64,000 nucleotides of DNA, taken from the NCBI RefSeq assembly GCF_964355755.1, contig NC_092676.1, positions 23,108,288 through 23,172,287 of the forward strand, written 5' to 3'. The stretch comes from Antedon mediterranea. Its lineage: Eukaryota > Echinodermata > Crinoidea > Comatulida > Antedonidae. The position numbers were made by a program, and so were the translations under genes. This document shows positions 14,593 through 62,000 of the stretch, piece by piece. The notes below the pieces were generated by a model, which saw only the letters and a list, made by a program, of their open reading frames with translations, did not search any database and had not been told where the DNA came from. Positions within the stretch are counted from its first letter, which is position 1. Every line of letters begins with the position of its first letter.

Positions 14593-17500
14593 ATGGCGAC
14601 GATCGTAAGATTTCAAAGTTTATTTAGCAATATTTCTTCAAAACACAAACTAGTTAAGAGTGTTAAACAATGTGTCAGACGATCCTCAGGAGATGCAAAA
14701 ACATCAGCTGCAGGAGAAGTAAAAGAACAAACATGGCTTCAATATTTTTGTAGGTAAGAAATGACGCATCGGCTAGACTAGCAAAACAAGTGCATTTCTG
14801 AAAAGTCCCCCAAGAAAAATTGGTTTGATCCGCTCCTACTAGAGCACAGTCTCTGATAGGCATAGCCTAGCATTTTACTAGTGTTCAGGCTAGAACTACT
14901 ATTAGTATTAGGCCTAGGCCTAGTAATAATCAAATAATAAATATATTAATACTACACTGAGAAAGACTGAGTTTAAGGTAATGCTGTTTACTTAGGTTAG
15001 TAACTATTGTATGTAGGCTAGGCCTAGCCTAGGTAGGCTAATTAATATTAATAATAATAATAATTAATATTTTTTATTTAACATCAACCACAAACGTTTT
15101 CTAGGCTAATAAATAAAGATAAATAAATAACTGAAAGAGAATTATCGTGTAATATAGGCCTACTACTGTAGTTCTATCAAGGCAATCTAACAACAAGATG
15201 ATGAGCTCCGAAGATCATAGGGTTTATCTGTGGCTGCGACACGATCAGTTCCACGCCCCTTCTTGACAGGCACTGCGCGTCGCTGAGAATATGTGCATAA
15301 TACAGTACTGTTGGTATTTGTCACAGCCAGACATCAAATGACTGTTCCTATCTTGGCAATGCGAGCTCAGTGTCCTGTTGTTAGATTGCCTTAGTTCTAA
15401 TACTAACTAAGTGTTATGCCTATTTAGACCAGTATAGTATTCAGACCAGTATAATATTCTATTTCAACATTATTACATATCATCATTATTACAGAATTGT
15501 ATTTCATATTTTGTGAATTCATTATTTTCTTTTTTTTTCCCATCATGACCCATTCTTTCGTCATCAAACAACAGTACTGTAAGTATTTTTCTCTTATTAA
15601 TTAATAATATTTTACAGAGGTACGGTAATAGAAAATTGCAATATGTCTGTCGTTAATTCAAAATAATACTATTCACATTTTAAATTGTTTTGTATGAATC
15701 ATTTCAGGTCGGACCAACACTGGTTCTTAGCTATAGGTAGGGATTCACGACCATGAATTTATCTGAAGTTGGGGATAATAAACTTTTATTAAATTAAATT
15801 CAGTTCCCTCTTGTGTTTTCCTGCCACTCTAAATTTGTGGTTGCTTATTTTATTTTGTGGTTTATGATGTTTTATGACAATAAAGAATAAGATTATTTCA
15901 AATATTAAGCAGAATGTATTATCTCATTGCTTTGATGTATTCAATATATATTATGTTTGTCATAACATTTCATAAACTTGTTGTACATTTTTTAAATGAC
16001 ATACAGTAAATATTTTCTTTTTTTTTTATTAAATTTCAGCAATTTTGGGGACCAGGTATGAATATTTTGTTTTACTATTTTACAATTTCATATGATGATT
16101 ATCTAAATCTTTCACTGCAGTGTTTCAAAAGATATGTTTTAGTAGAATACAAAATCAAAGATCTACAAAAGTGAAATCCAGTGGAAACCTCTGCTATTTA
16201 CCGTACTCAAACTTTTTGATATTTTATAACATCAATAAATGTATTGATTTTCAGGTCTTAGCTTTCGAAACACATACAATGTTACTGGGCTGAATTAAGC
16301 TCTGTCTACACTATCAAACTAAATATAGTAGTGATATGACATCATCATGTCCATATATCACATTTTTTGTCGCATAAATTTTGATAGTGTAGACAGAGCT
16401 TTAAAAGCTTAATTTATATATTGTTTTTAATTTAAAAGTTATATCACTATCAAATACATTTTTTAAATTTCATAAAATTATCTCTTAGTACTAGCAGGCC
16501 TTGTCTTTTAAGGCGAGCGAGTGCGATCACTCACACACTCCTAAACTGCCCTCAAAGAGTGTGATTTACAACACGCTTAAATTTGGTAAACTTCTACACA
16601 CCAAAATACAAACAGCGTCCCTGAATGTTATTGAGGAGTGCAATTTGTAGCACACCTATAATTTTCAAAAGACAAGGCCAGCTCTAGTAATTTGCATTGC
16701 TGGTAGTTTATAAAATTGAATGGTATCAGGTCATATGATTTAATGAATGGATATGAATATTTATTTGGAGACAATTAGAATGTATAAATGCTGCCCTCTA
16801 TATTTATCAGTCCATTAAATTAGTGTTCATTGACAATAGCTATTCATTTCATAATTGTTGAATCATGAGAACAACATTTTCTCTGACAGGCTGTAAATTT
16901 TAACATTTAATTTGTGTAGATGGCTTGGTAAAAACTGTTTTGTGTTGAATTACATTGAATTTCAGTACATTCATTTCACCCAATTAACAAAATACAGTGG
17001 CAAGGACCCAACCTTTATATTTGTAGAACATGTTTTCATTTTCAAATTCATTAGATTATATTTAATTATTATTATTTTTTTTTATTAAAAATTATATTAC
17101 AAAATACAGTAGAACTCCTATTAAGGGAACACCTTCTGGTCCCAACAAATTGCCCCTTTAATAGGGGTTGATTCAACCATTTGGCACACTCAAAAGCCTC
17201 CCTGTCCCCTTAATAGTGGTTTCCCCTGAGTAGAGATGTCCCCTGAGTAGTGGTGTCCACTGAGTAGTGGTGTCCCCTGAGTAGTGGTGTCCACTGAGTA
17301 GTGGTGTCCACTGAGTAGAGATTTCCCCTGAGTAGAGATGTCCACTGAGTAGTGGTGTCCCCTGAGTAGTGGTGTCCACTGAGTACTGTAGTGGTGTCCC
17401 CTGAGAAGGGGTGTCCCAAGGGAGAAGTTGTACTGTATCATTTTAGCAACCCAGTACATTGCATTACATCTCCTTCATTTTCCTATATGTGTCGTGTGTG

Positions 17501-33700: not shown

Positions 33701-36700
33701 ATGAAATGCAAGAAAATTCAATCTTGCATGTAACAGCTTGTTTACAGTTATTAAACAATATAAATAGTATCTTTATATCATTTTTACTGGTTGTATTGAT
33801 CCTTTGACAATATTGTATTCAATTTTCATGGTGACTCATATATAAAATGAGCAATATGTGATTGTTAATATACTAGTTTGTCAATATACATCTAGTATAC
33901 AGTAGCCCTACACTGTGCATTATAAATGGTTTAAGGTGATTGGTTGCATTGTACATTTTGGTCACCTTCTAGTATTTTGCATTGAGCGTTGTATAGATAT
34001 GTTTTTGCTGCTGTCATGTTGAGCCACTTCCCCAAGAACATATACAGTACTTACCAAAAAATTATCCTTTTAGGCAGTGGGTAAAGACTATGTCATCTAA
34101 TTCAAGTTATTAGTGTTACTGTACTAATAAAAAGCGACCAATTTAATCTGTCACCAAAAAATCTTAAAATATTCAAATTTTGAAAAATGCACATTAGTAC
34201 ACTACTATTAGCACTATTAATATAGATTTCCCCTTAATAGAAGTATCCCCTTTATAGTGGTGTCCCCTTAATAGTGGTGTCTCCTTAATAGAGGTGGCCC
34301 CTTAATTGAGGTGTCCCCTTAATAGAGGTGTTCCCATAATAGAGGTATCCTTTATACTGGTGTCCCCTTAAAAGAGGCGTCCCCTTAATAGAACTGTCCC
34401 CTTAAACGAGGTGTCTCCTTAATAGAGGTGTCCCCATAATAGGTATCCCTTTATAGTCGTGCCCCATTTATAGTTGTGTTAATAGAGTTGCCCTCTTCTA
34501 CTGTAGTATGGACATATTTGTAAATGTATTATAGTTTTACCATGCCATGGTTTTAAACAGAAAACTGTTAAACAGGTAGTAGACAAACTACAGAACTTGA
34601 TCACCTACTTGACAATATCAATGATTTGAATCCGGAAGATAAAGGACTACTGAATGATACTCAACAAAAAAATTGTTATACTCACAGCTTATATTCCATG
34701 TCCCATTAAGTTATGTAAGAAACTTACAAGTATGATATTAATAATTTCCAAGAGGATTTAGGAGGAACTCCTGGTACAGTAAGATTATGTGTTCACTTCA
34801 TAACCTATTTGATTAATATACATTTTAAATTGAAATTATTTATGGCATGCTGATCTATGTTATACATATTTATATTTTCAGTTTATTGTTAACTTTTTTT
34901 GATGTTGTATTTTTTTATGATTCAAACCTGTTAGTGGTGGTAATTATCGCTGTTGGTTTTGATTGACTAAAATAGAAATAGAAAGTATTTGACAAGTGGT
35001 AGAAACTCAAGTATGATATTAATAACTTAAAAGATAATATGACATATATGTAATAGGACTGTTTTCAGTTTCAGTTTAAAACTATGTTCAAGAAAAAACA
35101 AGAATTTTTGTATCTCTTCTCCATTTGTTAGTTTAAACTCTGTTTGTTTAACAATTACATTGTAACAAAACAATACATGGATATAGGCCTAGTCAGGAAA
35201 GTCCAGGAGAAATGTAAAAAGGTTTGAAGGGGTAGAATAAAAATGAAACAGTACTATCAAGTACCCAGAGATTCTTGTGTGGGTGCTGCATTGAAATTAG
35301 GCTTAGTTGAAGGTATTAAAATAAGTTCACGCTGGATGAAAGACATTGGCTATGGATGTCAATCATCAAAATGACCGGGGTAATAATATGTACAGCACTT
35401 TCATAACATTAAATGATTTATAAATCCAGGATATTATTATTTTAAAATTTACATTAAATGTTGTTTCTTTTTCCAGACACTGTATGGTCTTGGTGTTATT
35501 CAGCAGGGTCTGCGCCGTGTGGCTGGCTGGAGTGGAGTCGTCATAACAATGGCCTTACTGGTCATGTTCACATCTGCTACAGAATTTATCCGGTATGTAT
35601 AATTATTAATAATAATAATTTCCAAAGCAGACATATTCACAAGATATAGAGGTCTTATTAAAGAGCTCAAGGCACAAAATTAAATTATCAAGACCAATTT
35701 TCTTTTTTTTTATTTTGTAGAATATAAAAAAGATATATACAGTATAAAGTATTTTGTTTTTTATCTTTCCAGTCGGTCATATTTTGAAACATTTTGGTTT
35801 ACTCACCATTTATTCATCATCTATTTTGGGTTTCTGCTTGTCCATGGAGTTGAGTGAGTATTATATTATAATGATAATAATAATGGTAGTCTTATACAGT
35901 CCCTAATACAATGTTTCTAAGTGCTTTACACACAAAATTGATCCATGAAGAAAAGCAGAGGAGCAATTTACATCGCTCCGTTATCCAGCACTTTGAAGCT
36001 CCCATGAGAGCTTGCCGGCACAGTATTCACAGGAGCTCAGATCAAAATTTATGGAATTATATTTATTTTATAGATAAAAAATTCAATTTCTTATACTTTT
36101 TATTTGTTTTTGTTTTCAGAGGCGTTGTCCGATCACAGAGTAATACAGATATTCATGATCCATTCTTTTGTGAGGACGTCCCTGTTACGGAGTGGAAACT
36201 TGATGCGAACTGTACAACCAATCCAATGTTTGTGAAAGGGTCCCCAGCCGTATGTTAAATCTTAAATCTTAAAGAGAGGATAGTAATTATGATGGAGATA
36301 ATGGGGGAATTATAGGAAGAGATTTTGAAAAAAAAAATATTATTGTGATAATGTGTGGTCAAAAGACGGCCATAGGGGACATGGAAAGATATGGCAAAGA
36401 AAGTGTGTGAGTGGCTGAGCGGTTATTGTTGTTAAACAAACAGGAAAGTGGGTTTGGAGGAACTTGATGAGCAAGACAGGAAAAAGTGGAGAGATGGTGT
36501 AGCAACCTGGATTGGGTGACAGTCAATTAACCTCCTGGAAGAGGGAGAAAGCTCACTCAAATAAAATAGTATCACATGAAGATTATGTCTGGTATTTTGA
36601 TAGTGGTTGCAAATCTCTATGGCTAGAGCAGGTTGGATGTCAGAGCTTCTAGCTTTTGATGATATGGTTGTCATGGCCAGGGGAGTGGTAGGGCAGAGGA

Positions 36701-39700: not shown

Positions 39701-40523
39701 TAATATTTTTGTATGTATGTTGAGTTGAGAAATTACAAAATAAACATACCATGCAAGAAATATCAGTTAATAGTAGGCCCTAATATTAAAACATATATTT
39801 CCCTCACTTGTTTAATGGAAAAGTGTTTTTAATAGGGTTTCCATGAATAGGGATAGACCATAGTGTTAAAACATATATTTCCCCTCATTTGTGTAATGGA
39901 AAAGTGTTTCTTAATAGGGTTTCCATGAATAGGGATAGACCATAGTGTTAAAACATATATTTCCCCTCATTTGTGTAATGGAAAAGTGTTTCTTAATAGG
40001 GTTTCCATAAATAGGGATAGACCATAGTGTTAAAACATATATTTCCCCTCATTTGTGTAATGGAAAAGTGTTTCTTAATAGGGTTTCCATGAATAGGGAT
40101 AGACCATAGTGTTAAAACATATATTTCCCTCACTTGTTTAATGGAAAAGTGTTTTTAATAGGGTTTCCATGAATAGGGATAGACCATAGTGTTAAAACAT
40201 ATATTTCCCCTCATTTGTGTAATGGAAAAGTGTTTCTTAATAGGGTTTCTCAAGTGGAAGGTTCTATTTTATCTTCTTCTTAACAGAAAGAAGGGTTTTA
40301 CTGTACAGAAGCAAAATTATATTTTTTGTTAAGATCCATGGAATTACTAAACAAGTGTGAACTGGAATGATATTGAGTTAAACATTTTCATTACAGTGTG
40401 AATGCAGGTGTATTTTTCTGTGGGCCATCAGCTCTGTCACATGTCTTACACAAGAACAGCAACCTACATTCCAGCATTACCAGAGATGGCTGCCGCTTCT
40501 TCTACAACAAAGAAAACTTTTAA
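27763..40523 (+). CDS. NOX2: NOX2-like NADPH oxidase A, 14 exons, complete
   Basis: Exons: 27763-27807, 30519-30614, 30986-31105, 32013-32246, 35477-35592, 35773-35853, 36120-36249, 36815-36907, 37220-37354, 37973-38091, 38548-38667, 39087-39279, 39495-39619, 40397-40523. All introns are GT-AG and the frame gives 577 residues (human NOX2 has 570). The enzyme moves electrons from NADPH via FAD and two hemes across the membrane to oxygen, giving superoxide. Visible: six-helix heme domain with paired histidines H104/H118 and H215/H228; FAD motif HPFTLTS at 344-350; NADPH motifs [17 protein letters not shown] (414-422) and FFCGP; C-terminus NKENF as in human NOX2. N-glycosylation sites NNT and NCT lie in extracellular loops. 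No EF-hands, so not NOX5; closest to the NOX1-3 group. Gene B is its tandem paralogue. Confidence 0.95.
27950..28065 (-). mobile_element. Possible SINE, reverse orientation
   Basis: On the minus strand AGGTTCAAATCTGGC is a good B box and lies after TTGCTATTCCAAGG, as in the 23293 SINE. The A box is weak. In NOX-A intron 1. Confidence 0.35.
28158..28325. mobile_element. pogo/Tigger-like MITE
   Basis: TA, then CAGTCAACTCTCCCAATACC; right end CAGAGTTGATTG then TA. TCTGGTATT-type words repeat internally. No coding capacity. Confidence 0.7.
28845..29016 (+). mobile_element. hAT-like MITE with perfect 8-bp target duplication
   Basis: Starts CAATGGAGTAACGAGACC and ends CGTTACACCACTG (inverted ends), bounded on both sides by CATCTATC (28837-28844 and 29017-29024). 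The 8-bp duplication and CAGTGGCG-like ends are hAT features. Same family as 5673 and 48276. In NOX-A intron 1. Confidence 0.88.
29540..29912 (+). mobile_element. MITE family with GGCTGCCAGCCAAT core (copy 2)
   Basis: Same order of shared blocks as 24745-25032, with an internal duplication of the AACTGTAATTTAAAGC segment. In NOX-A intron 1. Confidence 0.7.
30256..30518 (-). mobile_element. MITE family (copy 3) abutting NOX-A exon 2
   Basis: Reverse-orientation copy: AAAGATGTACTGTCCC at the left, GGCATATTCAACAAAAACA near the right. Its terminal bases run directly into the 3' splice site of NOX-A exon 2 (exon begins 30519). Confidence 0.65.
31718..31930 (+). mobile_element. tRNA-derived SINE with ATAAACGAAATAAAA tail
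   Basis: GCTTGGTGGTTATGG and CCTGGGTTCATGTCCTG resemble A and B boxes. A body follows with AGAAGGATAGAGATG and an A-rich tail. In NOX-A intron 3. Confidence 0.5.
32350..32570. mobile_element. pogo-like MITE in NOX-A intron 4
   Basis: Left end TACAGTGAAACTATTAAGAG; body with GTCCTCTTAATAGGTGTTCC; right end near AGCTAGGTTCCACTTT. Related to the 17107 element. Confidence 0.55.
33215..33440 (+). mobile_element. LINE 3' fragment, 5'-truncated
   Basis: Frame-shifted codons still read [13 protein letters not shown] and [13 protein letters not shown] then stop. This resembles the C-terminal end of many non-LTR retrotransposon ORF2 proteins. It is followed by CTCTATACAAAAGAC and an ATT microsatellite, as in LINE tails. 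The rest of the element is missing. Confidence 0.65.
34225..34508 (+). repeat. Minisatellite of ~17-bp CCCCTTAATAGAGGTGT units
   Basis: About sixteen degenerate units. A right flank of CTACTGTAG resembles the end of the pogo-like MITEs, so this is probably an expanded element interior. In NOX-A intron 4. Confidence 0.75.
37444..37939. mobile_element. TA-flanked inverted-repeat element in NOX-A intron 9
   Basis: Left end GAGAGGTTTCGCAATCTTACG; right end CGTAAGGTTGCGAAACCTCCC, flanked by TA. The interior is CpG-rich (GAATACG words). It ends only 33 bases before exon 10. No transposase. Confidence 0.8.
38150..38257. mobile_element. TA-flanked MITE, AAGCTCTGTCTACACTATC family (copy 3)
   Basis: AAGCTCTGTCTACACTATCA at the left, inverse GTAGTGTAGACAGAGCTT at the right, TA on both sides. 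In NOX-A intron 10. A decayed fragment of the same family lies near 39305-39390. Confidence 0.85.
39785..40270 (+). repeat. Six tandem 82-bp repeats in NOX-A intron 13
   Basis: Units begin GTGTTAAAACATATATTTCC and contain AATAGGGTTTCCATGAATAG. Spacing is 82 bases at 39863, 39945, 40027 and 40109. The nearby right flank GGGTTTTACTGTA matches a pogo-like end, so it is probably an amplified MITE interior. It ends about 125 bases before the last exon. Confidence 0.85.
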
Positions 40524-47000: not shown

Positions 47001-50000
47001 GAGTTGTGTGCCAGGAATATTGCGGGAATATACCATTACCATGCCGGTATGGTTTTCTGTGAGAACGGGTCGTCTTGGCATCGTGTAAGATTGAATTGTG
47101 TCCAGCATTCAAAAGTGTCCGGGTGGACACTTTTCAGCATTGGATAGTGTCCAGTTGCATGTTTCAACGGGTTCGTGGGCGTTTTTCAACAATTTAATGC
47201 TGTCCGGCCATGGATTAAAGAATAGAAGGATATGCATCGACGGTGACATCAAACGATTTTACAACGCGCTTGCCTATACTAAAGCACTGCTGCCAATCAA
47301 ACAAACACGCTCATTGAACTCCGTGTCTCTAACCGCGGCCCTCTGTAAAACGCTTCGAATCAACTGTTACATTTTTTGAGACCAAAACGTAAGCATGTAG
47401 AAATCGTATGCGCAGTCTGAATGTTCTATTGACATGTCTGCGTCGATGATTAATTGACAACAAAAATATATTGCTGAATAATTCTGTTTTAGTTTCATCA
47501 CAATCGGACTACGAAAAGTTCACTTTCTTACGACTGGTAATTTTAAGTAGTTGGTAATATTAATAAAATATGCAATTTTTATATTTGAATTATCATTATT
47601 TGCCTGCCATCTTCTGTCATTAAAAATTGCGTTAATCTATAGAATATTAAATTATGCATTTGACCATGTATGTTGTTAGCGTGGCCGGTGTTCACCCATA
47701 CAACAATCGTGTTTTTAATATATGGCTAAGCAGTGGTTTCTTCATAAATCTCCTTAATTATCGATGTGATTATATTTAAATTGTAGTGCCTGGTGATTGG
47801 CTAGTGGTTATGTCATCCACATCACATCCAATCACCGGGTCTAATTGAATGAAAACAGCGATCCCTGATCCGGGATTGGCTGGCTATGTATAGTTGCGAT
47901 TCGTGTTCCCACTAGCGACGCAGATTAGCCTAGGCCTACCTAGGCAGTATCAATGTCGGCAAATCATATGGTTTACTAGTAAGCCTAGGCCTAGTATTGC
48001 TGATTTTGTAATTTTACATGTAGGCTGAGACAACAAATAAATAGTTATTGTCTCAGATGTAGGGCTACTACAGGTCATAAAATGCTACTTTAATGTCATA
48101 GGCCTAAAAACATTAGCGTAGATCAATCGCGGCAGAAACCTATACTAATTACAATTATAGCATCTAATATTCTAAGCCAATAACAATATAGTATTGTTTT
48201 TATCTGGTATATTGATGAAGTAGGCCTACACTAAGGTCTTCACAATAACATAAAATGTAATTTAATAACTGTTTTCAATGGCGTGAGGCAGAGGCCTGAA
48301 GCCACTTGTTTAGGAAACCTAAGTGGCCCTCCAAAATTTTCAAAGATCGAGGCCTCGGACGTTTTTAGCATTTTCGACAAATTTTATTCCTGTTCCTCTG
48401 GGCACTGCTCATGGGCCCCAAGCTTCGGTTTAGCCAGTGAGCGCACATATCCGTTACGCCACTGATTATACTGTTCAAATATGTATGAATACATACAGTG
48501 CAACAAAGAACGCGCGAAAGAAGCGTAGTCAACACGGTTAAATGTCGTTGCACATGTGCAGTAAACAATATATTAGGCACGCGACCGTTTCGTTGTTACC
48601 ATGCGGTTAATTAAACTGTAACATTGTGGGCGGTCCGCGGTCTGTCGGCGAGAGTCAAGGAACCCTTGATCTCACGTCGATGCATATCCTTCTATTCTTT
48701 AATCCATGGTCCGGCCCGTTTAATAATGTCTGACCCATGGATTGAAATGCGTCCACTATTAAATACTGTATCATACGTTTTATGATAGGTGGTTGTTTTT
48801 ATCACGCCTGCACTTGTCTTGTCTTCTTTTAATAACCAATAATATTTTTTTTTCTAATTAAAGATCGCTTTGCCTAAACACCTCCAATTAGGGACCATTA
48901 TATTATATGGTATGTGAAAAGACAAGAAGAATAAATAATTGTTAAGTATGTGACAAAAACAAGTAAATGAAGTGTTCCTCTTCCAATTAAAAATCACTTT
49001 ACCTAAAACACCTCCAATTAGCGACCATTATATTATTTAGTATTAATAAAGCAAGAAGAATATATAGTTTTTAATTATGTGACAAAAAACAAGTAATTGT
49101 ACTGGACCTCTTTCAATAAAGGACCACTTTACTTAAAACACCTCCAATTAGCGACCATTTTATTAATTGGTATGAGTAAAGACAATAATAATTAATAGTT
49201 TTAATTATGTGACAAAATTAAGTAACTGTACTGACTGGTCCGCTTCCAATTAAAGATCACTTTACTTTAAGACACCTCAAATTAATGACCATTTTTATTA
49301 ATTGGTATGAGTAAAGGCAAGATTAATTAATAGTTTAATTATGTGACAAAATTAAGTAAATGTACTGGTCCGCTTCCAATTAAAGGTCACTTTACTTTAA
49401 GACACCTCTAATTAGCGACCATTTTTATTAATTGGTAGAAGTAAATACAAGAAGAATACATAGTTTTAATTATGATAGTGACAAAATTAAGTAACTGTAC
49501 TAGTCCTCTTCCAGTTATAGATCACTTTACTTAAAGAAACCTCCAATTAGCGACCATTATATTATTTAGTATTAATAAAGCAAGAAGAATATATAGTTAT
49601 TAATTATGTGACAAAAACAAGTAATTGTACTGGCCCTCTTTCAATAAAGGACCACTTTACTTAAAACACCTCCAATTAGCGACCATTTTATTAATTGGTA
49701 TGAGTAAAGACAATAATAATTAATAGTTTTAATTATGTGACAAAATTAAGTAACTGTACTGACTGGTGCGCTTCCAATTAAAGATCACTTTACTTTAAGA
49801 CACCTCTAATTAGTGACCATTTTTATCAATTGGTATGAGTAAAGGCAAGAATAATTAATAGTTTAATTATGTGACAAAATTAAGTAAATGTACTGGTCCG
49901 CTTCCAATTAAAGGTCACTTTACTTTAAGACACCTCTAATTAGCGACCGTTATATTATTTTGTATGAATAAAGACAAGAAGAAGAAATAGTTTATAATCA

Positions 50001-53000
50001 TGTGATAAAAAACAAGTAATTGTACTGGTCCTCTTCCAATTAAAGATCACTTCAATTTAAACACTTCCATTTAGCGACCGTTTTATTATTTTGTATGAGT
50101 ACAGACAAGAGGAATAAATAGTTTATAATCATGTGATAAAAAACAAGTAATTGTACTGGTCCTCTTCCAATTAAAGATCACTTTACTTTAATACACTTCC
50201 AATTAGCGACCGTTTTATTATTTTGTACGAGCACAGACAAGAGGAATAAATAGTTTATAATCATGTGATTAAAAACAAGTAATTGTACTGGTCCGCTCAA
50301 GGCGCATTAAAAAAAAAAATAATAAAAACAAATCATACAACTCTCCCGGTCCCGAGAGCCGCTGTTTTGAGGTTGACCTGACAATTGTGGCAATTACCAA
50401 TTGGGACATTACCCTTGTTGGACATCTGGTAAAAATAAATACTGATTATGCTGCCACTTTAGTACACAAAACGATAAATAAAAAAAAATAATACAACTTG
50501 TAGCATTCCATTTAAACACAGTAGGCCCTGTTCAAAACTGCTAGTGTAGAAAAGTCAAATCCACCCATATAATAAAACCTAGAACTAGCTAATGATGTAG
50601 AAACACCAACAGCTTATTTATCAAATAAAAATCAACATTATACTCATGTACAACTCAACAGGTAATGTAGTAACGAAAATTGCCTCACAGCTAATGTAGT
50701 TAATATCGCCAGCTAATAAAATATTATATATTTTACAAACCTAAATGTCTAAATCATGTGCAAATGTATTTCTCTACTTGCCGTCAGTCTATCCACCTCT
50801 CGTAAGTGATCGGCTTTCAAAACTTAGCACTCTGATCGTAAGCAACCACCCTTGTTAGCGACCACCTTTAATATTTAAAAGGGACTACCTCTGTTAAAGG
50901 ACCGCTTCTCACAATGGACAACCTCCTGAAGGGGTAACCACCTCTCATAACGGACTGCTTTCATAAACTACCACCGCTCGTAGACGACCACTTCTTTTAC
51001 CGACTACACCTCCCGTAAGTGACCACCTCAATAGAGGTGGTAATTTGCGAAAGGTGGTCGTTACGGAATTATGAGAAGTGGTCCCTTAGGAGAGGTGGAC
51101 GTTTTTTTTTTATAGATTATTCGAAAAATACAAAAAACCGAAATACCCTTGAGTGAACGAATAATTATGATGCGCAATTAAGGTGTTTATTTTGCCATAT
51201 AAAATATAAAAAAATAAATATTTTTTGGTAATATGCATCAACAATATTTTTCAAATGTATTTTAGATAAATAAATAAATAATGTAAAATCTCGAAACAAA
51301 AAAATATTGTGACTAACCAATTCAATGTTTTATTAAATAAAACCAAAAATCAGGCATCTGTGAAAAAAAATATAATGAAAAAGAACTCACTTTAACAATG
51401 ACGAACTTACTTGTTTAAAGCACTTTTGTTATCAGTTAATATTATTAAATTAGTAACAGTATTATGAATATTACAAAATAATATTTTGAGAACTGAAAAA
51501 TATTTTGAGGGAACAAATATATTTAGGGAGAACAAAATAAGATTTCAAGAACTGAACAATATAAAAAATGAATTACTACTTCGAGACAAGGAATGATCGA
51601 GAGAACGAAATAATTTCGAGGGAAATTATTTCGTTCTCTCGCGAATTAGTAATTCGAATTCCAATGAAATAATATTTCGAGAGAATGAAAATAGGTAGGC
51701 CCTATGCCTATATGATTTAGTGATATTCATTCCCTAGAAATAATAATACAGTACCGGTAGGCTATATATTTTTTCAAGTTATCAGATTTACTTCAAATTG
51801 ACAACAGGTTGTATATACTCAATCAAAAACAAACAATTTAATTTGATTAGACTATATGTCTCCAGATATAATAATAGTAATATTTATTTCAATCGACTTG
51901 ATATTTTGCGATTCAAGTTGGTATTCTAAGGAATTATAATTACCCTAACGGGAGTTGGTGACCTTCCAGAGCCCTAGTTTTTACGGGGTTAATATGATGT
52001 CGATGTCCCTACTTTTTTATCGATGAAAGCTGCCCGGGTGGTTGCAGCCATTTTCAACAGCTGGTATTACACTATTCAATGCTGAAAATTGTCCAGTGGA
52101 CACTTTCAAACACCGGACACATTTAAATCTTACACCGGCATCGACATGACCTGCTTTAGACCTAGTAATATTCTAGGGATATTCCCCGCAATGCCAGACG
52201 GGCATTCTGTGAGAACGTATTGCCGTTATATTCCGGGGTTCCCCGTCGAGGCTTTGACACCTTGCGCAGTCAAGTGTATCACTTTGGCGCCTATTCAATT
52301 CAATTAACAATAATAATGTGGAACTGGAGGGATAATGAGATAAGAGAGCTGCTTAAAATAAGGGGACAAGAAGAAATTTGTAGCATAATCTATATAGGCC
52401 TAGGCCGCTAGGCTAGGCCATTAGCTCTTTGTTTGTTGGTGCCTGACCTTTCGTCGCCTTGTAAATTGTAGGCCTACAGCCTTCTAAGGTGTTTTACAGA
52501 TTGCCGATGACGGCAAATTAATTGCTATACCTGTATAATATATGCACAATATACTGTACATAGCATGTATTGCATAAATATGCTATAAAGGAAGATAATA
52601 ATCTGTAACTTAACATTCGCCGCCATATCATCCAGGTATATAAACTATACCAAACTGGCGAGTAAATCATGTTTTACTTTTTAAACATCGCAACGTCTGG
52701 TTGAAAAGGCTACTCGGACCAATAATTTCTATTAGCCTAGGGGTTATTGCGATTTGGACGTTTCTGATTGGCTGTAGCCATGGACTATATTGATTAACAC
52801 TGTTCTGATTGGTTGTAGCTTTGAATACATCTTCTCGGAACTCGTCCTTAATACAATAGCAATTTAGCACAGTGTTTTACTATATAACCAGATAAATAAT
52901 AGGAAACATTTAATAATTTGATAAATGACATTTAAATAGAAATTTAGGTAAATGTCTTTTGAAATGAAATTAAATAAATTATAACCAATTTGGTTAGAGT

Positions 53001-56000
53001 AAAACACAATGATAAAGAATAGGAAACATTTAATAATAATTATGATAAATTACATTTACATAGCAATTTACCACTGTGTTTTACTATAACCAATTTGGTT
53101 AGAGTAAAACACAATGATAAAGAATAAGAAACATTTAATAACATGATAAATGACATTTACATAGCAATTTAGCACTGTGTTTTACTATAACCAATTTGGT
53201 TAGAGTAAAGCACAATGATAAAGAATAGGAAACATTTAAAAATATGATAAATTACATTTACATAGCAATTTAGCACTGTGTTTTACTATAACCAATTTGG
53301 TTAGAGTAAAACACAATGATAAAGAATAAGAAACATTTAATAACATGATAAATGACATTTACATAGCAATTTAGCACTGTGTTTTACTATAACCAATTTG
53401 GTTAGAGTAAAGCACAATGATAAAGAATAGGAAACATTTAATAACATGATAAATGACATTCACATAGCAATTTAGCACTGTGTTTTACTATAACCAATCA
53501 GATTAGAGTAAAACACAATGATAAAGAATAGGAAACATTTAATAATATGATATATAACATTTACATAGCAATTTAGCACTGTGTTTTACTATAACCAATT
53601 TGATTAGAGTAAAACTCAACGATAAAGAATAGGAAACATTTAATAACATGATAAATTACATTTACATAGCAATTTATCACTGTGTTTTACTATAACCAAT
53701 TTGGTTAGAGTAAAACACAATGATAAAGAATAGGAAACATTTAATAATATGATAAATTACATTTACATAGCAATTTATCACTGTGTTTTACTATAACCAA
53801 TTTGGTTAGAGTAAAACACAATGATAAAGAATAGGAATTTAATAATATGATATATAACATTTACATAGCAATTTAGCACTGTGTTTTACTATAACCAATT
53901 TGGTTAGAGTTAAACACAATGATAAAGAATAGGAAACATTTAAAAATATGATAAATGACATTCACATAGCAATTTAGCACTGTGTTTTACTATACCAATT
54001 TGATTAGAGTAAAACACAATGATAAAGAATATGAAACATTTAATAATATGATAAATTGCTAGCACTGTGTTTTACTATACCAATTTAGTTTTGGATAAAG
54101 AATATGAATTTAAAGAATGGATATAATATGATATGATACAATATGATTTTCTCCAAATTAGTAAGACATTTTGGAATACTGCGTGCGTAGTGCACCTAAC
54201 AAGATCATGTTCGCTATTTAAAACTCACATTTTAAAACCGTAAACGCATATATTTGCGGACATACTCGTAAAACACACTTCCAGAGATTTAATAATTTTA
54301 ACAGTACTACAAAATCCATAATATAAAGTAGTATAGATTTGTACAAAAAGAGCAGAACAATTAAATTAACTGTCATTACATCTACTGAACTGTCTCATTA
54401 CATCTACTGAAAAATTCATCGCGATGAATTTATTTATAATACACCAATCAGATCACACGCAATTAGTATGGAATGCCAGTTTAGGCGATGATAAAATCGC
54501 GTCGATGATGCAATGAAAATTGCGTCGATGTGATGAAATTGCGTCGATGAATATAGTATTGATGTAATGAAAATATAAGTCGATGTGATGAACATTGCGT
54601 CGATGAAAATTGCGTCGATGTAATGAAAATTGCGTTAATGTGATGAAAATTGCGTCGATGAAAATTGCGTCGATGAAAACTGCATCGATGAAAACTGCAT
54701 CGATGAAAATTGCGATCTCCCTGCCGGTATGATTTGAATATGATGTCATGGATGCTGGACATCTGAATTTTATGTAGGCCTACTGAACTGGTGGATTAAC
54801 GGAAGCAATTAGCTAGAAGATATAATGTGTCCGAAAGGACAATAATGGATCCATTGCTAAAATGTGTTGACAATAAATCACTAAAATGTTAATCAGTGCA
54901 TATATTTCAACATTGTTTTAGTGCGCGCTCACTGTGCGCTTGTCTATAACGCGCGCTAGCGCAAGCGGTAAACATGTTTATCATATCAAAATATTCAGAA
55001 ACCGTCAATTTTTAGCAACATAATAACATTATTAACATCATTATTAACATCATCATTTACTTTACTAGTAGTCATTTTCATCATTGATTGAATTAAAACC
55101 ATTTGGAATTTTCATAATCAATTAAATTCATCACATCAATTTTCATCGATGCAGTTTTCATCGACACAATTTTCATCGATGCAATTTTCATCGACGCAAT
55201 GTAAATTGCGTCGACGCAATCTACATTGCGTCGATGCAATTTTCATTGACGCAATTTCATCATCGACGCAATTTTTATCATCGCCAAAAACTTGTGTAAA
55301 ACGGCGTTCCATAATTAGTGACGAATCGCATATTCGCCGTTTATTGTTGAGGCGCGTAAACAGTGTGCGCAATGCACGTTTTCTTCCCATGACGAGACGA
55401 ATCGATATTCGACGCTTCGTGTGACGAATAATCGCCAAATTATAATTAATATAATTAATTAATGAAATAAGATACGCAGTTGATGTTTGCATCAATTGTT
55501 CTTTAGAATAAATACTTTCGAAATACAAAACAAAAAATGTGTGGTGAGTGACGATATGTTCAATCATGGACCTATAAATTACTAATTTATAGGTCCATGA
55601 TTCAATATCTGTAGCTTCAATTCAAACATAATGTAACAGAAAATTCGAAGTGTAAAAAACGTTCGTTTACACAACACTTTTTTTTATACTTTATTAGTGA
55701 TTATTATATTATACAGGAATACTATTTATTTCCTCATTTCTACCCAAGAATAAACAATTTTTGGATACAAAACTTTATGCATGTGAATTACATTACCAAA
55801 ATATTAAAATGAGGATAAAAAAACATCGCGTAAAATACTCGTATTCAAAAGCTTCTGAAATTTGTAGATATATGTCATGAAAAAGAAATTTGACATTCCC
55901 AATAATTTTTTTTGGCAAAAATGTAATATATGAAACATACAATTTACATAGTTTATCATTGTTTTTTATTAGAACCAATATGGTTACACAGTTAAACATA

Positions 56001-59000
56001 GTGATAAAGACTAGATACTTGTTAGGTTACTACCCTACCCTCTAGTTTGAAGCGACATTATAAATTCATCGAGAAAAAAAACGCATCGTATTCAGAAACG
56101 TTTGACATTTTGTATAGATATATTCAATAAGACGAAACAAATTATAAATTTCAAGACAAATCGATGACTTCCATTATTTGCATTTCTAAAAATTCACACT
56201 TATGAAAGACCATACATTTTCAACATATTCGTTTTTTCTGTGTACCGAGTTTAGAAACTTTTTGAATACCAGACGTATTTTGTGATGCTTTTTCATTTGA
56301 ATTGTAGTATAAAATGTCATTGAAACGAGATAAAAATCATACAAGACATGTTATAATAGGTTGCTCTATATACATAACAAAATTAGTTATTTTTTTTTGG
56401 TAAGAATCGCCAATGAAGTAGAAAGTTATTTCAGATGTAGTGTGCATTTATACGTCATTAATAGTAGGCCTAAAATATAATATTAAATATTATAAAGAAT
56501 ATCAAACATTTTATGTTATGAAAAATAAAATTTACATATAAGTTTATCATTGTGTTTTACTATAACCATTTTGGTTAAAAGTTAAACACAGTGAGTGATA
56601 AAGAATATAACTGTTTTAGTTTATTTAACCCTAACCCTAGTTTGAAGCGATCACATATTTAATATTCATCGCTAAAAATACGTATCGTCTTGAAAAACGT
56701 TTGATATTTGGTAGATATGTCCAATATAGGTTCTTACATCTATAATGCAAAAGAAATATCCTAATAGTTTTATTTTGATTTCTGGGAATCATCAATGAAG
56801 TAAAAATGTGTTGGAAATGTATTGTCTTTCATAAGTGTAAATGTTTAGAAATGCAAATTATTAAAATCACGAATTTGTCTTGAAACTTTTATTTTTTGTT
56901 TGTTTTATAGACGTAAGAACCTATTGAACATATTTACCAAATTTCAAATGTTTCTGAATACGATACGTATTTTTTCGCGATGAATTAAGTATGTGATCGT
57001 TTCAAACTAGGGTTAGAGTTATATAACCTAAAACATGCAGTGTCTATTCTTTATCACTGTGTTTAACTGTGTAACCAAATTGGTTCTGTAAAACAAGATG
57101 ATAAACTATGTAACTTGTATTTATTATTATTACATTATATGTATCCTATAATGTAATATGAAAAATAAAATGTACATAGTTTATCCTTGTGTTGTACTAA
57201 AACCAATTTGGTTAAAAGTTAAACACAGTGTTAAAGAATGGAACTGTTAGGTTATTTAACCCTAACCCTAGTTTGAAGCGATCACATACTTAATTCATCG
57301 ATAAAAATACGTATCGTCTTAAAAAACGTTTGAAATTTGGTACATGTTCAATATAGGTTCTTACATCTATAATGTAAAAGAAATATCATAATTTGTTTTA
57401 ATTTGATTTCTGGGAATCATCAATGAAGTAAAAATGTGTTGGAAAATGTATAGTATTTCATAAGTGTACATTTTTAGAAATGCAAATTATTAAAATCACG
57501 AATTTTTCGTGAAATTTATATTTTTTGTTTGTGTTATAGACGTAAGAACCTATTAAACATATCTAACAAATTTCAAAAGTTTCTGAATATGATACGTACT
57601 TTTTCGCGATGAATTTATTATGTCGCTTCAAACTAGGGTTAGGGTTATATAACCTAAAACAGTATCTATTCTTTATCACTGTGTTTAACTGTGTCACCAA
57701 ATTGGTTCTGTAAAACAAGATGATAAACTATGTAACTTGTATTTATTATATTATTACATTATATGTATCCTATTCTTTATCATAACGTTTAGATAATAAG
57801 ATATGTTTAATATAATATTTTGCTATGTAAATAACATCATATAATAAATGTTTCATTATCATTGTGTTTTACTGTAACTAAATTGGCTATAGTAAAACAC
57901 AATACTAAATTTGTATGTAAATGTATCATATTATTATATGTTTCCTATTCTTTATTTGTGTTTTACTGTATCCAGCACAGTGCTAAATATCATTTATCAT
58001 AGTTAAAATGTTTTACTCTAACCAAATTGGTTATAGTAAAACACAGTGATAAATTACTATGTAAATGTCATTTATCATATTATTAAATGTTTCCTATTCT
58101 TTATCATTGTGCTTTACTCTAATCAAATTGGTTATAGTAAAACACAGTGCTAAATTTCTATGTGAATGTCATTTATCATGTTATTAAATGTTCCTATACT
58201 ATATCATTGTGTTTTACTCTAATCAAATTGGTTATAGTAAAACACAGTGATAAATTGCTATGTAAATAATCATTATTATTAAATGTTTCCTATTCTATAT
58301 CATTGTGCTTTACCATAACCGAATTGGTTATAGTAAAACACAGTGCTAAATTGCTATGTAAATGTCATTTATCATATTATTAAATGTTTCCTATTCTATA
58401 TCATTGTGCTTTACCATAACCAAATTGGTTATAGTAAAACACAGTGCTAAATTGCTATGTGAATGTCATTTATCAAATTATTAAATGTTTCATATTCTTT
58501 ATCATTGTGTTTTACTTTAACCAAATTGTTTATAGTAAAACACAGTGCTAAATTGCTATGTAAGTCATTTATCATATTATTAAATGTTTCCTATTCTATA
58601 TCATTGTGCTTTACCATAACCAAATTGATTATAGTAAAACACAGTGCTAAATTGCTATGTAAATGTTATTTATCAAATTATTAAATGTTTCCTATTCTTT
58701 ATCATTATGTTTTACTTTAACCAAATTGGTTATAGTAAAACACAGTGATAAATTGCTATGTAAATGTCATTTATCATATTATTAAATGTTTCCTATTCTA
58801 TATCATTGTGCTTTACCATAACCAAATTGGTTATAGTAAAACACAGTGATAAATTGCTATGTAAATGTCATTTATCATATTATTAAATGTTTCCTATTCT
58901 ATATCATTGTGCTTTACCATAACCAAATTGGTTATAGTAAAACACAGTGATAAATTGCTATGTAAATGTCATTTATCATATTATTAAATGTTTCCTATTC

Positions 59001-62000
59001 TATATCATTGTGTTTTACTATAACCAAATTGGTTATAGTAAAACACAGTGCTAAATTGCTATGTAAATAATCATTATTATTAAATGTTTCCTATTCTTTA
59101 TCATTGAACTTTACCATAACCAAATTGGTTATAGTAAAACACAGTGCTAAATTGCTATGTAAATGTCATATATCATATTATTAAATTCCTATTCTTTATC
59201 ATTCTGCTTTACTTTAACCAAATTGGTTATAGTAAAACACAGTGCTAAATTGCTATGTAAATGTCATTTATCATATTATTAAATGTTTCCTATTCTTTAT
59301 CATTGTGTTTTACTTTAACCAAATTGGTTATAGTAAAACACAGTGCTAAATTGCTATGTAAATGTCATTTATCAAATTATTAAATGTTTCCTATTCTATA
59401 TCATTGTGTTTTACTCTAACCAAATTGGTTATAGTAAAACACAGTGCTAAATTGCTATGTGAATGTCATATATCATATTATTAAATGTTTCCTATTCTTT
59501 ATCATTGTGTTTTACTCTAACCAAATTGGTTATAGTAAAACACAGTGCTAAATTGCTATGTAAATGTCATATATCATATTATTAAATTCCTATTCTTTAT
59601 CATTCTGCTTTACTTTAACCAAATTGTTTATAGTAAAACACAGTGCTAAATTGCTATGTAAATGTCATTTATCATGTTATTAAATGTTTCCTATTCTATA
59701 TCATTGTGTTTTACTCTAACCAAATTGGTTATAGTAAAACACAGTGCTAAATTGCTATGTAAATGTCATTTATCATATTATTAAATGTTTCCTATTCTAT
59801 ATCATTGTGTTTTACTCTAACCAAATTGGTTATAGTAAAACACAGTGATAAATTGCTATGTAATGACATTTATCATATTATTAAACGTTTCCTATTCTTT
59901 ATCATTGTGTTTTACTCTAACCAAATTGGTTATAGTAAAACACAGTGATAAATTGCTATGTAAATGTCATATATCATATTATTAAATTCCTATTCTTTAT
60001 CATTCTGCTTTACTTTAACCAAATTGGTTATAGTAAAACACAGTGCTAAATTGCTATGTAAATGTCATTTATCATATTATTAAATGTTTCCTATTCTTTA
60101 TCATTGTGTTTTACTTTAACCAAATTGGTTATAGTAAAACACAGTGCTAAATTGCTATGTAAATGTCATTTATCAAATTATTAAATGTTTCCTATTCTAT
60201 ATCATTGTGTTTTACTCTAACCAAATTGGTTATAGTAAAACACAGTGCTAAATTGCTATGTGAATGTCATATATCATATTATTAAATGTTTCCTATTCTT
60301 TATCATTGTGTTTTACTCTAACCAAATTGGTTATAGTAAAACACAGTGCTAAATTGCTATGTAAATGTCATATTATCATATTATTAAATTCCTATTCTTT
60401 ATCATTCTGCTTTACTTAAACCAAATTGTTTATAGTAAAACACAGTGCTAAATTGCTATGTAAATGTCATTTATCATATTATTAAATGTTTCCTATTCTA
60501 TATCATTGTGTTTTACTCTAACCAAATTGGTTATAGTAAAACACAGTGATAAATTGCTATGTAATGACATTTATCATATTATTAAACGTTTCCTATTCTT
60601 TATCATTGTGTTTTACTCTAACCAAATTGGTTATAGTAAAACACAGTGATAAATTGCTATGTAATGACATTTATCATATTATTAAACGTTTCCTATTCTT
60701 TATCATTGTGTTTTACTCTAACCAAATTGGTTATAGTAAAACACAGTGATAAATTGCTATGTAAATGTCATTTATCATATTATTAAATGTTTCCTATTCT
60801 TTATCATTGTGTTTTACTCTAACCAAATTGGTTATTGTAAAACACAGTATATTTTACCTCAACAACATGTAACATCGCCGCAAAATTGTTTATACGTTTA
60901 TTTTGATTGGCTAACTAAAGTACGGTCTAATGAATATTGATATCAGAAGATTCCCTAGCTTAGTGAAAAAGTTTTATTACCAAAAATATGCTGATCTCGT
61001 CACTACCGGAAGTTGTAGTCTAGCATGATGCAGACGCAATTGATTATGTACGTTTGTTAAACATATAAAAAGCTGTAAATTACCACAAAACGACAATAGG
61101 AAAGAATTCAAAGAAATGCCCTACGTGTTCAAAATCATTGTTTTAATATAGTCTGTATGTATAACTAACAATTGACCTTGTGGAAGAGCGTATACATTTA
61201 ATTTAAAGTAAAACATGATTTACTCGCCAATTTGGTATTGGATATATAGCTCTATCATCGCTAGACAAAAATAATAACAATAAAGGACGCCCTCAATAAT
61301 TATTTTGTCAGAGACTTTTTATTGGCCGAATATGCCCGACTCCTTTCTCACAGAAAGCCGGTATATACCGGTTATATTTCCGGCACGATAGTCCGATGAG
61401 AATGGGTATATGCCGGTAACGATACCGGCACGACGCCAGCACTGTACCGGTATATTGCAGGCACATCTGTGAGAAAGGGGCTATGTTTCATTCCAATATT
61501 TATTTACTAGACTGCATATGGATTTGGCGTAATCCAACAAGCGCTACGGCGGATTGCAGGTTGGAGTGGAGTTGTGATAACGCTGTCATTATTGCTGATG
61601 TTTACGTCAGCAACTGAATTGATCAGGTAGGCTAGTTGAAATATAATATAATAATGTGTAAATATGTATGACATAATGCCCATACATGGGCATTATGTCA
61701 TACACTACCATATTTGGGCACATCACACTTTTTTCAAAATTTGTTGGTAGTGTAGCCAGAACTTAATATATAGTTTTTTTTATAGATATAAAGGCGGTCT
61801 TCATACTCTGTTTATATTCCTTAACTTTTTTTTCAGACATTCATACTTCGAAACGTTTTGGGTAACACATCATTTATTCATAATTTATTTTGGATTTCTG
61901 CTCGTCCACGGAATTGAGTGAGTACATCAATTAAATATTAAAGTTCATTTTAGAATTAATACATTTTATTGAACGCATTTTAGCCGTTTGATTTACCGCA

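Follow-up and report, generated by a model that had tools for sequence, protein, structure and literature searches.

A foldback element with inverted satellite arms in the Antedon mediterranea genome is probably a young, non-autonomous DNA transposon

A segment of about 8.6 kb in the genome of the crinoid Antedon mediterranea carries long inverted arms of satellite DNA between two copies of TATCATC, which raises the question of whether it is a mobile element or a locally duplicated satellite block and, if mobile, what moves it and what its arms do. What maintains the long tandem-repeat arms of foldback elements is debated, and so is the origin of satellites. We analysed the 64,000-bp stretch that contains the segment (hereafter, the window) and searched the 354-Mb genome for its relatives. 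The best overall explanation, to which we assign a probability of about 0.85, is that the segment is a copy of a young, non-autonomous, cut-and-paste foldback DNA transposon, here called E1.

The window copy of E1 spans positions 52633-61252 (8620 bp), and its outermost letters are CAGGTATATA... at one end and ...TATATAGCTC at the other. On the plus strand, TATCATC (52626-52632) is followed by the left terminus CAGGTATATAAACTATACCAAACTGGCGAGTAAATCATGTTTTACT (52633-52680), a subterminal stretch that grades into degenerate satellite units (52681-52979, read from the sequence) and a left arm of 10.7 copies of a 101-bp satellite (52980-54056, from TRF). Across the loop, on the minus strand, lie an inverted right arm with 28.4 copies of the same satellite (58009-60848, from TRF and comparison of the arm consensuses), a right subterminal stretch (60849-61204, from the divergence of 30 copies over the last 378 bp) and the right terminus, GAGCTATATATCCAATACCAAATTGGCGAGTAAATCATGTTTTACT when read inward (61205-61252), which is an imperfect inverted partner of the left one. 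An exactly matching plus-strand TATCATC closes the structure (61253-61259). The arms, centred at ~56.0 kb, are complementary at 93-95% in stretches of up to ~510 bp; their consensus monomers, with the right arm flipped, are about one position apart, and left-right arm identity is 0.94 whether arms are compared within one copy or between copies. The first 300 bp of the left side are 95-100% identical across the 40 best copies. Within the loop, a pair of ~629-bp tandem units (56616-57749, no strand assigned; direct-repeat families D10, D12 and D14-D18) are each palindromic internally and contain a satellite-like segment. No credible Pfam match was found in the loop, where one sub-threshold hit fell in a repeat frame. 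Matched termini, flanking TATCATC copies and inverted 101-bp arms had all been proposed in the initial annotation and were borne out. In line with its remark that tandem repeats may expand unequally, arm length differs between E1 copies, with up to ~44 detected monomers per array and element sizes of up to ~10 kb before nested insertions.

The loop also holds a foldback element of another family. This 845-bp element (54468-55312, no strand assigned) is bounded by inverted ends of its own (ATGGAATGCC...GGCGTTCCAT) and contains inverted TCGATGAAAATTGCG arrays at 54489-54714 and 55127-55283, centred at ~54.9 kb. An old E1 copy at C7:6.83 Mb (L093) is uninterrupted at this point (...GC-AATTAGT-GACG...), with a single AATTAGT where the window copy has one on either flank (54461-54467 and 55313-55319, plus strand). 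Because the nested foldback is absent from the old copy, it is a separate element that inserted into an E1 ancestor and was then amplified with E1. Whether its duplication is the 7-bp AATTAGT turns on the placement of the ends, and TATGG...CCATA ends with a 5-bp ATTAG duplication fit equally well. The three nested inverted pairs described in the initial annotation are thus not a single structure around one centre, as the TCGATGAAAATTGCG arrays belong to this insertion and have a different centre from the satellite arms. Ends similar to those of this nested element (TATGGAACGCC...) bound a 0.9-kb palindromic foldback with 14-bp repeats at C6:11.71 Mb (L079, 2037-2925), which adjoins an open frame for a P-type transposase.

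To the right of E1, two plus-strand NOX-like exons (61511-61626 and 61837-61917), translated jointly with the next exon, match Pfam Ferric_reduct (E = 3e-7). Since these exons encode a NOX-type ferric-reductase segment, this E1 copy is placed within an intron of the gene or next to one, in agreement with the location suggested earlier. Elsewhere in the window are tandem arrays of 130-bp units (48852-50294, 11 copies) and 82-bp units (39786-40249, 5.7 copies). Similar 17-bp units of TGTCCCC type make up a further two arrays (17203-17417 and 34217-34442).

A genome-wide search with a 31-base piece of the E1 terminus, allowing up to two mismatches, returned 119 matches, nearly all in inverted pairs, and none for the reversed control. 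The other loci with both ends that the initial annotation had proposed to look for are therefore plentiful: at least 55 E1 copies carry both, ranging from 2.4 to 22.8 kb (median 8.8 kb). Exact 7-bp target duplications flank 27 of the 28 copies for which both flanks were read, and all 27 differ in sequence, a weak bias aside. This bias is symmetric around the duplication, with a pyrimidine at -9 in 25/28 and a purine at +9 in 26/28 (positions counted from the centre of the 7 bp), and amounts to a weak palindromic target preference. The lone exception, C2:11106978-11114814, has GCGTCGT on its left and GTCGTAG on its right, with no matching 7-bp duplication, and is possibly a recombinant copy of the kind described for Galileo. 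For another copy, C5:29599688-29609538, which sits inside repeated sequence as CGGAGTC|E1|CGGAGTC, a paralogous empty site at C5:28.61 Mb reads ...TATCAA-CGGAGTC-TGGCAAAA... with a single CGGAGTC, aligning over 315 bp on the left (98.4% identity) and 58 bp on the right (100%). The whole of E1 was thus inserted as one unit, and a single empty site, on which the earlier interpretation had hinged, exists for this copy.

The best-matching copies are also nearly identical. Mean pairwise divergence over the right-end 378 bp is 0.5% among the 30 best-matching copies, a lower bound because the sample comprises the best-scoring ones, and half of them equal the consensus. The family is therefore young, and an older layer at ~80-89% identity (C7:6.83 Mb and C4:12.69 Mb) accompanies it; E1 has been recently active, with a young burst of copies on top of the old layer.

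E1 has a sister family, E2, built to the same plan. The E2 left terminus CAGGTATATAAAATATACCAAATTGGCTAG occurs ~50 times in the genome and the right terminus GAGCTATATTTCCTATACCATCCTGGCTAG 54 times, corresponding to ~54 E2 copies. One of these (L090, 160-6309, 6150 bp) is flanked by a 7-bp GCTGTGC duplication and carries inverted arrays of a 106-bp satellite, and two further copies (L091 and L092) show the same arrangement. Both families have asymmetric termini that begin CAGG... on the left and GAGC... on the right. A third satellite, E5, with units of ~97 bp, starts next to the right ends of two E1 copies. A pattern search for further terminus families, excluding E1 and E2, gave two hits only.

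What might move these elements? None of the E1 and E2 copies that were read contained a transposase or a long transposase open reading frame. The extra DNA of the 13-23-kb copies was considered as a transposase gene and proved instead to consist of other nested elements, including an LTR element of gypsy type, with frames resembling reverse transcriptase and integrase, and a 7-kb foldback. A foldback of ~7.2 kb with ends TATGGCAAGCCTCAGCTG, distinct from E1, is inserted three times in E1 satellite arms, in C7:22800567-22816987 and C4:31171059-31193850 (L072-L073 and L086-L088), with apparent 6-bp duplications TTTCCT, CAATTT and CTGTGT, and its ~180-bp centre resembles E1 loop sequence. E4, which extends downward from C5:30458738 with terminus GAGGTATATACAATATACC, was rejected as an autonomous partner: apart from one 80% fragment, the first 340 bp are present in a single copy, and a pattern search did not find its far end. 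A gene beyond E4 (L097, C5:30452300-30457300) matches nothing in Pfam and shows nuclease-like motifs (TVDTDVVVI...AFTGSDTTS); it was likewise rejected as E4's own, belonging to a separate multicopy family, and its dozens of genomic copies at >85% identity indicate that it is probably another transposon's gene. Genome-wide, 35 P-type transposase hits (PF21787) were detected, none of them inside the listed E1 copies, and no E1-type terminal motif was found within 1.5 kb of eight P-transposase loci. Three of the P-type loci (L080-L082, at C1:2.82, C3:37.95 and C8:6.21 Mb) are at least 99% identical and share a 794-codon transposase frame, and represent a recently active P-like element; G-rich repeats lie near one side of this frame.

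The structure of E1 and the length of its duplications nevertheless bear on its placement. Long inverted tandem-repeat arms flanking a loop, together with single-unit insertion, target duplication and dispersed copies, are the features of the foldback structural class. They refute the idea that the segment is an immobile satellite block duplicated in place in inverted orientation, a reading the initial annotation had also offered: unequal arrays complementary at 93-95% would fit it, but it leaves the identical ends of dispersed copies, their exact duplications and the empty site without explanation, and we regard it as having virtually no chance of being correct. Drosophila FB elements have long inverted arms of tandem repeats and 9-bp target duplications. 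The proposal of an FB-like giant element accordingly survives as far as a mobile foldback with satellite arms is concerned, and fails for membership in Drosophila FB, whose duplications are 9 bp and not 7 bp. An assignment to the FB or Mutator/Phantom foldbacks, with a Mutator-type transposase, would fit the general architecture, which FB and nematode Tm1 share with E1, and the foldbacks Tetris (PMC4079207) and Tm1 (PMC3169594) were assigned to Mutator by their authors; yet duplications of 7 bp in 27/28 E1 copies contrast with 9 bp in Tm1 (PMC3169594) and 8-10 bp in Tetris (PMC4079207), and we consider this assignment improbable. Tetris, a non-autonomous foldback of Drosophila virilis whose satellite-like arm repeat shares a stretch with its terminal domain (PMC4079207), further differs in its 220-bp unit, in having just three copies that are structurally complete and in the presence of free satellite arrays, as against the 101/106-bp units, at least 55 two-ended copies and a genomic satellite content close to the elements' own seen here.

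P elements have a palindromic target preference centred on the duplication. Galileo combines 7-bp target duplications with long, internally repeated arms and many transposase-less copies, and its families have a conserved terminal segment in common with family-specific sequence further inward (PMC3573991, PMC3688188). E1 and E2 resemble this published description in their 7-bp duplications, repeated arms, transposase-less copies, and termini shared between families with family-specific sequence further in, and differ in scale: Galileo arms measure ~0.3-1.3 kb with few tandem repeats, whereas arrays here reach ~44 detected monomers in elements of up to ~10 kb before nested insertions. The duplication length, palindromic bias and internally repeated arms thus resemble the Galileo side of the P superfamily more closely than FB, Tm1 or Tetris, and we put roughly even odds on a P-superfamily (Galileo/1360-like) enzyme as the likeliest mobiliser. 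A foldback family served by a transposase whose superfamily makes 7-bp duplications and is undescribed or unlisted would suit the lack of a transposase in the E1 and E2 copies read, but such novelty is unneeded when the Galileo branch already joins 7-bp duplications to long internally repeated arms (PMC3573991), and we hold this to be rather unlikely.

The satellites themselves carry a possible clue to the function of the arms. Monomers of E1, E2 and E5 can be aligned over a frame CACTGT...CCAATTTGG...CACAGTGATA, between whose elements the half-sites differ; for E1 and E2, the cores differ while the frame CACTGT...CCAATTTGG...CACAGTG is largely kept. In E1 and E2, the terminus shares a family-specific core of 9-11 bp with its own satellite, and the two cores occupy matching positions in the monomer alignment. 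In E2, the terminus contains a perfect dyad, TAGTTGAGAA-TTCTCAACTA, and TTCTCAACTAT is common to terminus and satellite, a match well above chance (reached by 1 and 11 of 2000 shuffles). The corresponding E1 core, TGTTTTACT, is a weak match, reached by 77 and 151 of 2000 shuffles. Core matches between families are at chance level, the longest being a 9-mer between the E2 right terminus and the E5 satellite. Taken together and in register, the E1 and E2 cores suggest that terminus and satellite change jointly, as transposase-binding sites would, and hence that the shared cores are repeated binding sites. By this model, a transposase supplied in trans would recognise the E1 termini, and the arms, each monomer of which would hold a dyad of the terminus core, would form arrays of secondary binding sites that unequal exchange would lengthen and shorten, the right arm usually being the longer. 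Alternatively, the arms may be passive, consisting of tandem repeats that merely expanded, with the core a relic of the monomer's origin from the terminus and of no role in binding. Tetris offers a precedent, as its arm repeats share 37 bp with the flanking terminal domain and were proposed to have been duplicated from it (PMC4079207). Against passive arms stand the differing E1 and E2 cores within a largely constant frame, which point to joint change of terminus and satellite, and the observation that the Galileo transposase THAP domain binds terminus and arm repeats alike (PMC3688188). We judge the passive account somewhat unlikely, and treat as tentative the composite proposal that the arm satellites are binding dyads co-evolving with the family terminus and that a transposase bound at the right end steers new copies, even those of another family, into a tail-to-tail position. 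If that proposal is true, the elements would generate satellite DNA and also exemplify end-directed self-targeting. Two sister families and a related third satellite, which follow one plan with different cores in a single near-chromosomal assembly with dozens of young copies, make the binding-array idea open to comparison and to binding assays.

The steering component derives from the arrangement of neighbouring elements. Among 30 E1 right ends, five lie no more than 80 bp from the right-type end of a different family (E2 in two cases, E4 in one and E5 in two). The complete set of E2 right ends contributes three more pairs, an E1-E2 pair 17 bp apart and E2-E2 pairs 7 and 11 bp apart, so that the eight tail-to-tail gaps are 7, 11, 17, 20, 21, 22, 29 and 80 bp. 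Only ~0.002 neighbours within 100 bp would be expected for 30 ends, and among the listed ends no neighbours this close are left-left or left-right. As a Fisher test of right versus left ends in the E1 sample yields only p = 0.05, the argument for the right end rests on all eight pairs being right-to-right. In the pairs that join E1 with E2, E4 or E5, an exact 7-bp duplication of its own flanks every E1 copy, marking these as ordinary insertions at a preferred place. One E2-E2 pair reads CAATCGA-E2-CAATCGA-E2(inverted)-CAATCGA; with CAATCGA between and outside both elements, the second reused the target of the first. New copies thus tend to settle repeatedly by the right end of a resident relative. 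Drosophila singed-weak is a double P-element insertion in inverted orientation at one shared 8-bp site. The E2-E2 pair likewise has two inverted elements and one shared target copy; unlike singed-weak, all pairs here join right end to right end, and some combine different families. Our guess is that capture by a right-end-bound transposase explains the preference: enzyme at a resident right end would draw new insertions into the adjoining few tens of bases, producing tail-to-tail pairs. If so, right-end-directed, tail-to-tail insertion would be a target rule that is both unusual and measurable, and inversions and nested arrays may arise from it.

Finally, we compared the satellite content of the elements with that of the genome. 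The satellite dyad occurs 3878 times genome-wide, with 67 matches in the window copy and 16 to 121 in other copies, so the 55 E1 copies can account for essentially all of the genomic satellite. One small satellite cluster, at C1:58.8 kb, is found near an E2 right end; in this region close to a chromosome end (C1:58105-59100), E1-type monomers lie ~0.7 kb inside an E2 right end, in what is possibly a hybrid or nested copy.
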